Below are positions 40,429 through 41,476 of a DNA stretch of 42,728 bases, one piece after another (the stretch's first letter is position 1; every line of letters begins with the position of its first letter). Origin of the DNA: Saprospiraceae bacterium (lineage in GTDB: Bacteria > Bacteroidota > Bacteroidia > Chitinophagales > Saprospiraceae); NCBI GenBank assembly GCA_022844565.1, contig JALHLK010000042.1, positions 1-42,728 on the forward strand, given 5' to 3'. Under the pieces are notes generated by a model. The model had not been told where the DNA came from and did not search any database. It was given only the letters and a program-made list of their open reading frames with translations. Position numbers and translations under genes: made by a program.

Positions 40429-40445
40429 TTTCTTTTATATTCAAC

Positions 40446-40477
40446 AAAAAAAAAGAGCCCTCGAAGGAGGACTCTTT
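40446..40477 (-). terminator. Attenuator terminator of the aromatic operon
   Basis: On the minus strand AAAGAGTCCTC (40477-40467) pairs with GAGGGCTCTTT (40462-40452), an 11-bp stem with one G-U pair and the 4-base loop CTTC, followed by a nine-base U run (A bases at 40446-40454). It lies between the leader peptide and pheA and fits an intrinsic terminator. Confidence 0.9.
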
Positions 40478-40525
40478 ATTTTTTATGTTTGCAATTTCAA
40501 ACTTTCTAAAATATCCGTCCTCCTC
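40463..40525 (-). promoter_or_regulatory. Antiterminator pairing (leader regions 2 and 3)
   Basis: On the minus strand GAGGAGGAC (40525-40517) comes directly after the leader stop codon. AGGAGGAC is the exact complement of GTCCTCCT (40472-40465), which is also the 5' arm of the terminator. The two pairings are mutually exclusive: if the ribosome stalls on the leader's Phe/Tyr codons, regions 2 and 3 pair and transcription continues; if it reaches the stop it covers region 2 and the terminator forms. Confidence 0.87.
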
Positions 40526-40582
40526 TTATTTGTGGTAAAAGAAGAAAGGCGAATAAAAAAAGTTTGAATTGTTAATTATCAT
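40526..40582 (-). CDS. Phe/Tyr-rich attenuation leader peptide
   Basis: An 18-codon reading frame, too short for ORF calling: MIINNSNFFYSPFFFYHK, TAA. Five of 18 codons are Phe and two are Tyr, in two runs (FFY and FFFY). The last run ends two codons before the stop, which is directly followed by the antiterminator segment. Its place before the pheA-aminotransferase-tyrA-DAHP synthase operon, downstream of a promoter and upstream of a terminator with an alternative pairing, is that of a phe-type attenuator. Low charged tRNA-Phe or tRNA-Tyr should let the ribosome stall and prevent termination (mechanism known in enterobacteria; inferred here). Confidence 0.88.
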   Translation of the reverse strand: MIINNSNFFYSPFFFYHK

Positions 40583-40605
40583 TTCTATTTACAATAAATT
40601 TTTTG

Positions 40606-40637
40606 CAAACATAGCGCAATCATTAGAAAACATCAAA
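40606..40637 (-). promoter_or_regulatory. Bacteroidota-type promoter of the aromatic operon
   Basis: On the minus strand TTTG (40637-40634) and TATGTTTG (40613-40606) match the -33 TTTG and -7 TAnnTTTG consensus of the Bacteroidota primary sigma factor with 20 bases between. Transcription would start near 40600, some 18 bases before the leader-peptide ATG. Confidence 0.75.
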
Positions 40638-40714
40638 CTTTATATTCATTTATTTAGAAAAAAGTTAGATTTAAAACAGAAAAAGCAAATAATCGGTGAT
40701 TTCTAAGTTATATG

Positions 40715-41476
40715 TTATACTAATTCAGGTTTATGCATGGTCTCTGCACTTGTATGCAAATAATACGTTGCCGCTATAGCACCAATAATTGTTCCTGCAA
40801 TAGATCCTAAAAATGGTATAGCAAATATTAGTTTGACAACCGTTCCTAATATAACAACTGCCGGAATATGCAGATGTATTTTTGGTTTGGCTTCCTTAAT
40901 TTTAAGATTATAAATATGAAAGTAGCTATCAAAAAATAGATACCCTACAAAAAATGCACCGATAAAAAACTTGATTACATCTTCTAACCAATCTGGGCCA
41001 AAGATACCAACCACGATAGATACCACGATACCTAAGACAAGCTCATATATCCAGTTTCGTATCGAAAGTGCAATAATCCTAATTTGAGAATCTATGAAAT
41101 CTTTAATAGTAATTTTACCTTGATATCCCGTCAAAACATCCATGGTCTTATGCATGATAAAAGTGATAAGCATAGAAAATAGGATCATTACAATATATTT
41201 ATGATATCCACTAAATGAAGACAATAAATCACTAAAAGGGATTCCACTTATTCCCATTTCTATGGCCTCGCCATCTTTTATCGTCCCTTCGATTTTTTTG
41301 TCTACAAAATTAAAAAGTGTAATGGGTATTGCCAAACCAAGTAAAATAGTCAGGTAGAGCACTGCCTTTTGGTTAAAAAAACCTTTCCATAGCTTGTTCT
41401 TCACTAAAAAAGGAATGGTCTCCTTTAATATATGAATCATTCTCAATTGGGCTTTGTCTAAAAAATTCATTGTCAT
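40715..41476 (-). CDS. EI24/CysZ-like integral membrane protein
   Basis: 253 residues with about five to six hydrophobic segments (AVLYLTILLGLAIPITLFNF, YIVMILFSMLITFIMH, LVLGIVVSIVVGIFG, FFIGAFFVGYLFFDSYFHIY, VVILGTVVKLIFAIPFLGSI). The C-terminal GYLFFDSYFHIYNLKIKEAK followed by IPFLGSIAGTIIGAIAATYY recalls the EI24/CysZ membrane family, but I cannot confirm the match and would keep it as an unknown membrane protein. It is a separate unit upstream of the aromatic operon on the same strand. Confidence 0.55.
   Translation of the reverse strand: MTMNFLDKAQLRMIHILKETIPFLVKNKLWKGFFNQKAVLYLTILLGLAIPITLFNFVDKKIEGTIKDGEAIEMGISGIPFSDLLSSFSGYHKYIVMILFSMLITFIMHKTMDVLTGYQGKITIKDFIDSQIRIIALSIRNWIYELVLGIVVSIVVGIFGPDWLEDVIKFFIGAFFVGYLFFDSYFHIYNLKIKEAKPKIHLHIPAVVILGTVVKLIFAIPFLGSIAGTIIGAIAATYYLHTSAETMHKPELV

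Follow-up and report, generated by a model that had tools for sequence, protein, structure and literature searches.

What controls the entry of RNA polymerase into the aromatic amino acid operon of a Saprospiraceae bacterium (Bacteroidota), and does the stretch before its first gene, pheA, read the supply of phenylalanine and tyrosine? We address this question for contig JALHLK010000042.1 of assembly GCA_022844565.1, whose 42,728 nucleotides are referred to as the window, and for the regions upstream of pheA in related genomes. Our reading, held with high confidence, is that of a four-strand ribosome-mediated transcription attenuator in front of a joint Phe/Tyr operon, which would respond to the supply of charged tRNA-Phe and tRNA-Tyr. 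A more surprising result than the single module of the window is given by its relatives, many of which carry two such modules in series.

Leader and Operon in the Window

The leader region occupies positions 40637-40443 of the minus strand, from promoter to T-rich tract. It opens with a Bacteroidota-type promoter (40637-40606), composed of TTTG at 40637-40634, a 20-base spacer and TATGTTTG at 40613-40606; the motif is also enriched in the family. The leader reading frame, MIINNSNFFYSPFFFYHK (40582-40526), comprises 18 codons followed by TAA at 40528-40526, and seven of the codons are aromatic, five for Phe and two for Tyr. Directly after the stop lies strand 2, GAGGAGGAC (40525-40517), the 5' half of an antiterminator. 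Its partner, strand 3, GTCCTCCT (40472-40465), is located inside the 5' arm of an intrinsic terminator (40477-40443), which consists of an 11-bp stem (40477-40467 with 40462-40452, including one G-U pair) followed by a T-rich tract; of the run of nine T at 40454-40446, three lie inside the stem. Strand 3 can pair either with strand 2 or with strand 4, and since both pairings use it, antiterminator 2:3 and terminator 3:4 exclude each other.

A first-pass annotation, made from the letters of this DNA, had proposed these elements, i.e., the promoter, the 18-codon frame, the GAGGAGGAC stretch after its stop, the 8-bp complement in the arm of the 11-bp terminator stem, the U9 tract and the mutually exclusive pairings, and we find all of them on the minus strand. 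Its account of strands 2, 3, and 4 stands, while it overlooked strand 1 with the 1:2 hairpin, the additional outer helix, and the occurrence of two modules in relatives. The 1:2 hairpin (40546-40518; 11 bp, 7-nt loop) is predicted by folding and pairs the Phe-Phe-Phe-Tyr codons (40546-40536) with the stop codon and GAGGAGGA (40528-40518); the equivalent helix of the family covaries (alignment A2). The locus thus combines a short ORF rich in codons for the product, an intrinsic terminator before the first gene, an antiterminator sharing strand 3, and a 1:2 hairpin over the sensing codons.

Downstream on the same strand, ORFs and matches to Pfam and NCBIfam delimit an operon at 40428-36404. It is composed of pheA (prephenate dehydratase, 40428-39547; Pfam PDT and NCBIfam), a class I/II aminotransferase (39550-38378; Aminotran_1_2), tyrA (prephenate dehydrogenase, 38381-37542; PDH_N/PDH_C), and a DAHP synthase-chorismate mutase (37495-36404; DAHP_synth_1 and CM_2). 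This gene order and the 4-bp overlaps at the first two junctions agree with the previous description; a gap of 46 bp precedes the DAHP synthase-chorismate mutase. The aromatic role of the aminotransferase rests on context, because its top NCBIfam match is the LL-diaminopimelate aminotransferase model and lies below the cut-off. Judged by protein family, the operon would make Phe and Tyr, the very amino acids that would be sensed, and the attenuator model suggests that the supply of both is read together.

Conservation of the Module Upstream of pheA

Our starting set comprised 206 upstream regions of pheA homologues, 121 from the family, five from the same order, and 80 from named loci chosen by similarity to PheA. 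The family regions are a non-random draw: 25 were joined by 96 from a second search that matched 206 of 298 genomes, the best-scoring matches being taken. After 14 regions had been dropped (12 sharing a 60-mer with another region, two too short), 192 were left. Stretches of upstream DNA are common to family loci and to records that bear the label Saprospiraceae (L204 and L032, L178 and L035, L013 and L058), which makes this the probable family. To be called, a module had to comprise a short ORF containing five or more F, Y, or W codons, with a terminator no more than 150 nt away.

A module is found in 107 of the 114 non-redundant family regions (one in 56, two in 51, none in seven) and in 65 of the 74 named regions, of which 57 have a single module and eight have two, with nine lacking any; among the four same-order regions, one has a single module and three have none. 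Dinucleotide shuffles gave a module in nine of 570 family and five of 370 named trials, and the reverse strands in two of 114 family and three of 74 named regions. The module of the window thus exceeds chance expectation, as judged by family regions against shuffles and reverse strands. Likewise, the motif TAnnTTTG occurs within 100 nt upstream of 41 of the 56 single-module family leaders, with 4.9 expected from shuffles. Over all 232 detected modules, aromatic codons make up 42% in the leader frame and 16% and 19% in the other two frames, an excess that is partly by construction because the detector selects for it.

To higher taxonomic levels, we drew a sample evenly across the class. A pheA match was obtained in 40 of 149 genomes, 38 of them outside the family; 36 regions were read; of the other two, G055 was part of the order set and G343 is a fragment. 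A complete module is present in 23 of these 36 (one in 22, two in L322) and absent from 13, two of which (L299 and L306) have an aromatic leader and no called terminator; for the last nine regions of the sample, L317-L325, the call was made by inspecting ORFs and T runs by eye. The attenuator module is widespread and ordinary for the phylum. Downstream context varies: of the named loci, 60 have 4.4 kb or more of downstream sequence, and among these all four genes follow in order at 21, and a DAHP synthase-mutase is seen at 48.

Three named contigs are labelled Lentisphaerae, Bdellovibrio, and Legionellaceae (L051, L065, and L086). Their PheA proteins are as near to the query as those of Bacteroidota, and the leader of L086 resembles Pedobacter leaders, which suggests misbinned contigs.

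Covariation and Pairing

From 153 family modules that passed a spacing filter, 64 were picked at random by class and, with seven left out, 57 were aligned. Helices 1:2 and 3:4 together show both-side changes at 16 of 18 pairs with 90.0% of cells paired, compared with 78.0% in shuffles and at most 65.1% when the columns were slid; 3:4 by itself shows such changes at 10 of 10 pairs. For helix 2:3 the values are five of five pairs and 91.6%, compared with 84.0% in shuffles and at most 58.9% when slid. All measures beat all 500 shuffles with one exception, the both-side pair count of 2:3, which was reached by 15 of 500; the helix columns were taken from the consensus of the same alignment, and related sequences inflate such covariation counts. 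All three helices, 1:2, 2:3, and 3:4, covary. An alignment-free comparison points the same way: the own 2:3 duplex has a mean energy of -12.5 kcal/mol versus -9.0 kcal/mol with the arms of other loci, and is the better one in 194 of 231 modules against other loci and in 201 of 231 against shuffled versions. Most pheA upstream regions thus have a leader frame dense in aromatic codons, and their alternative stems covary; these were the features that the first-pass annotation had proposed to look for in an alignment of orthologues, and its Phe/Tyr attenuator reading gains support from both.

In the hairpin of the family, a Tyr codon UAY (codon -4) has as its partners the stop codon and the base preceding the stop. 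The wobble base of this Tyr codon tracks the partner before the stop, with 53 T-A and 39 C-G against eight T-G and five C-A combinations (158 family modules). Single family modules show this register less strongly (57.5% of the five tested pairs), and in the named set it does not stand out (48.5%); there, the hairpin may occupy a different one. Many leaders end in GxP, and a peptide-level reason for this ending is not favoured: leaders ending in YAQT, YAAA, YERS, or FFRS keep the hairpin, and because the hairpin is kept while residues change, the constraint looks like RNA pairing.

The 57 aligned modules were also turned into a covariance model, R1. In the genome of the window, where 150 of 9694 first-look candidates were scored, R1 finds the pheA leader (E 1.2e-4) and one weak match (E 0.79; L222), which has no same-strand ORF longer than 61 aa downstream in the stretch examined. 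Over 41 family genomes, 29 matches were listed at E of at most 0.01, in 21 genomes. Of these, 28 are located immediately before pheA and come from 20 genomes, eight of which have two matches; seven of the 20 genomes supplied training rows and the other 13 did not, though close relatives of theirs did. The remaining match lies upstream of asnA in genome G025. Nine further genomes of the 41 possess pheA and no R1 match, and the ORF detector finds modules in four of them (G010, G014, G028, and G032); R1 thus passes over cases that look real. Because R1 recovers a part of the modules of the ORF detector (pheA, 20 of 41 genomes), we use it for specificity and not for counts.

Proposed Mechanism and Predicted Folding

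From the arrangement of the strands, we infer where a ribosome would stall, what Phe or Tyr limitation would do, and in which direction control would run. With ample Phe and Tyr, the ribosome would get to the leader stop and cover GAGGAGGAC, so that strands 3 and 4 could pair and transcription would stop before pheA. With Phe or Tyr short, it would stall on the leader codons and cover strand 1; strand 2, thereby freed, would capture strand 3 ahead of the synthesis of strand 4, and RNA polymerase would enter the operon. If the leader were not translated, the 1:2 hairpin and the outer helix would hold strand 2, and termination would be the default.

Folds were predicted for the window RNA. The untranslated leader folds into the outer helix, which in the window leader joins the leader start to the region before the terminator, together with the 1:2 hairpin and the terminator (-45.3 kcal/mol). 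With a ribosome at the stop, represented by masking the RNA up to a point 12 nt (inclusive) from the first stop-codon base, the terminator remains; the footprint size used for masking is general knowledge. With stalls at codons 13, 14, and 16 and RNA made up to strand 3, helix 2:3 forms at -20.3, -20.3, and -19.7 kcal/mol, respectively; once strand 4 is present, the equilibrium fold for the same stalls is the terminator again. Stalling at codon 8 (the first Phe) likewise allows 2:3 to form as long as strand 4 is absent, but does not cover strand 1, and the full-length RNA then folds into 1:2 and the terminator. The effective stall thus probably lies in the second Phe run. As the full-length equilibrium fold favours the terminator at every stall position tried, the mechanism would need kinetic, co-transcriptional folding, with strand 2 capturing strand 3 first. 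Such folding is a general need of attenuators of this kind.

Signal Probably Read by the Leader

Among the alternatives, the one that survives best holds that one of the two amino acids alone is sensed and that the Tyr codons are there largely because UAY pairs with the stop; we regard it as rather unlikely. Tyr at codon -4 is at least partly structural, because that codon pairs with the stop codon in the family hairpin, and it is found there in 80% of the distal (first) and 56% of the proximal (second) leaders of family regions with two modules and in 33% of the single family leaders. However, Tyr is also common away from the stop pairing, with 50% and 35% at codons -6 and -11 of the distal leaders, and at least two Tyr are present in 55 and at least three Phe in all 56 of the single family leaders. 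Single named leaders give a similar picture (at least three Phe in 55 and at least two Tyr in 56 of 57), while W is present in 22 of the 56 single family leaders as a raw count. Nearly every leader found mixes Phe and Tyr, and the earlier view that such a mix is unusual in this phylum is not supported.

A terminator with an alternative pairing could in principle answer to something other than a ribosome, such as a ligand or a protein (riboswitch, T-box, RNA-binding protein), the small ORF being incidental. We consider this highly improbable: the ORF is conserved together with its aromatic codons and with the register that it keeps to strand 2, and strand 2 starts at the stop codon, at the place that a terminating ribosome would cover. 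Moreover, a scan of the window against Rfam, whose 4227 families presumably include the T-box and, by name, a Phe leader, returned no family at gathering score and hence no attenuator, riboswitch, Phe leader, or T-box match, and a scan of 16 further sources returned a single tRNA and no attenuator or riboswitch family. Least probable of all is that the hairpin merely terminates the upstream same-strand gene, which ends at 40715, with pheA transcribed from elsewhere, since promoter motif and leader stand between that gene and the hairpin, and leader and hairpin are kept upstream of pheA across the family. The upstream gene (40715-41476) has a weak EI24/CysZ match below the cut-off, and the pheA attenuator may also end its transcript.

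Relation to Known Attenuators

On the sequence evidence, the window holds a well-supported single-module Phe/Tyr attenuator. Ribosome-mediated attenuators of amino acid operons are known from Proteobacteria, e.g., the trp, pheA, and pheST leaders of E. coli. The window shares with them a leader peptide rich in the regulated amino acid, the 1:2, 2:3, and 3:4 pairings, an intrinsic terminator, and a biosynthetic operon downstream. Unlike these, it combines Phe and Tyr codons in one leader, and the operon behind it is a joint one with tyrA and DAHP synthase-chorismate mutase; its strand 1 is formed by the sensing codons themselves, its hairpin contains the stop codon, and at gathering score it matches no Rfam family. 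Our study provides a defined attenuator model, supported by covariation, for a phylum in which no amino acid leader of the scanned sets matched Rfam.

We found little literature on Bacteroidota attenuators, on tandem leader attenuators, and on an asnA leader. A comparative study from 2010 (Lopatovskaya and others), cited in PMC4833913, may already list Bacteroidota leaders. In the same phylum and at the same gene, the part of a study of Flavobacterium psychrophilum at hand describes a structured 5' element upstream of pheA without an Rfam match, which occurs in other Flavobacteriaceae genera, and reports strong indications that operons for amino acid biosynthesis are preceded by leader peptide attenuation (PMC9723704). 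That part of the account gives no leader sequence, no amino acid sensed at pheA, and no tandem form (PMC9723704).

Tandem Modules in Relatives

Outside the window, two complete modules stand in series before pheA in 51 of the 114 family regions. The genus of the window has single modules in all five of its non-redundant members. The tandem form is present in at least one member of 29 of 55 genera, and in every examined member of 23, many of which are represented by one or two members.

The second leader starts at a median of 31 nt past the first terminator. TAnnTTTG is found within 100 nt upstream of 46 of the 51 distal leaders, where shuffles predict 4.2; the stretch between the modules contains it in none of 51 (1.3 expected, with less room). 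By itself, the absence between the modules is weak evidence because the intervening stretch is short; a motif that is frequent before the first module and missing before the second points to one transcript. In the 58 tandem regions from all sets, which may include four spurious ones, strand 2 prefers the arm of its own module in 47 distal and 43 proximal cases. The four are two-module calls in named regions (L043, L054, L088, and L107) whose first module was judged by eye to be spurious, the upstream ORF not being aromatic-dense or the hairpin being A/T-rich; the calls in L066, L091, L098, and L108 look real by eye.

It is likely, in our judgement, that in about half of the examined family relatives pheA is preceded, on a single transcript, by two complete attenuators in series for the same amino acids, and that each of these has a leader, a matched antiterminator, and a terminator to itself, so that RNA polymerase would meet two gates. 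A division of labour, with each module sensing a different amino acid, is not supported, as the Phe/Tyr fractions in the family are alike (distal 0.256/0.167, proximal 0.239/0.170). Recent duplication is not favoured either: identity between the own distal and proximal modules is 0.492, compared with 0.559 for distal modules between genera; the corresponding between-genera values are 0.452 for proximal-proximal and 0.478 for distal-proximal pairs.

If this reading is right, gates in series would multiply two readthrough probabilities and thus give low leak and a steeper response. The tandem relatives would provide a natural test of the effect of same-input stacking on leak and steepness, for which the window and other single-module relatives would serve as the comparison. 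Among open-licence full texts, we found no paper on tandem leader attenuators for the same amino acid. A partial parallel is given by tandem attenuators of the Salmonella mgtCBR operon, which encodes a virulence protein and a Mg2+ transporter and, in the part of the source at hand, has two short ORFs in one leader controlling its transcription (PMC3641672). In contrast to what that part describes, both modules of the pheA relatives are rich in Phe/Tyr codons and each has its own terminator.

Other Amino Acid Leaders in These Genomes

The genome of the window contains a Trp-rich leader, MINQNWWWHIELTYNGNR, with a terminator before its trp operon (L264 2493-2549, contig 5; genes named by eye). 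A second DAHP synthase is located at the end of this operon (L242). Because this enzyme sits in a separately led operon, the link between the pheA leader and entry into the shikimate pathway, as drawn in the first-pass annotation, holds in part.

A His-rich leader precedes hisG in the genome of the window, and a His-rich leader with a terminator is found in 19 of 24 family hisG regions (L288 and 18 others), one of the 19 having two; the hisG regions L266 and L288 match no Rfam leader family. For asnA, 19 genomes were matched among 199, and 18 regions were read, leaving out L263, which starts inside the gene at a contig end. Asn-rich modules are absent from 17 of these 18 regions. Leader-peptide attenuation looks general in these genomes, and among the loci examined the tandem form is common only before pheA. 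The single positive asnA region, which also gave the R1 match outside pheA, is that of G025 (contig 5, L241 1468-1709), where two leaders rich in Asn, MNISSNNNNINYNEYFFKRSVG and MNTNFKNRFNNNNNNNLYSRFPSGY, stand in tandem, with a terminator after each, upstream of a gene that by eye is asparagine synthetase-like; this one genome would make the tandem form a reusable design.
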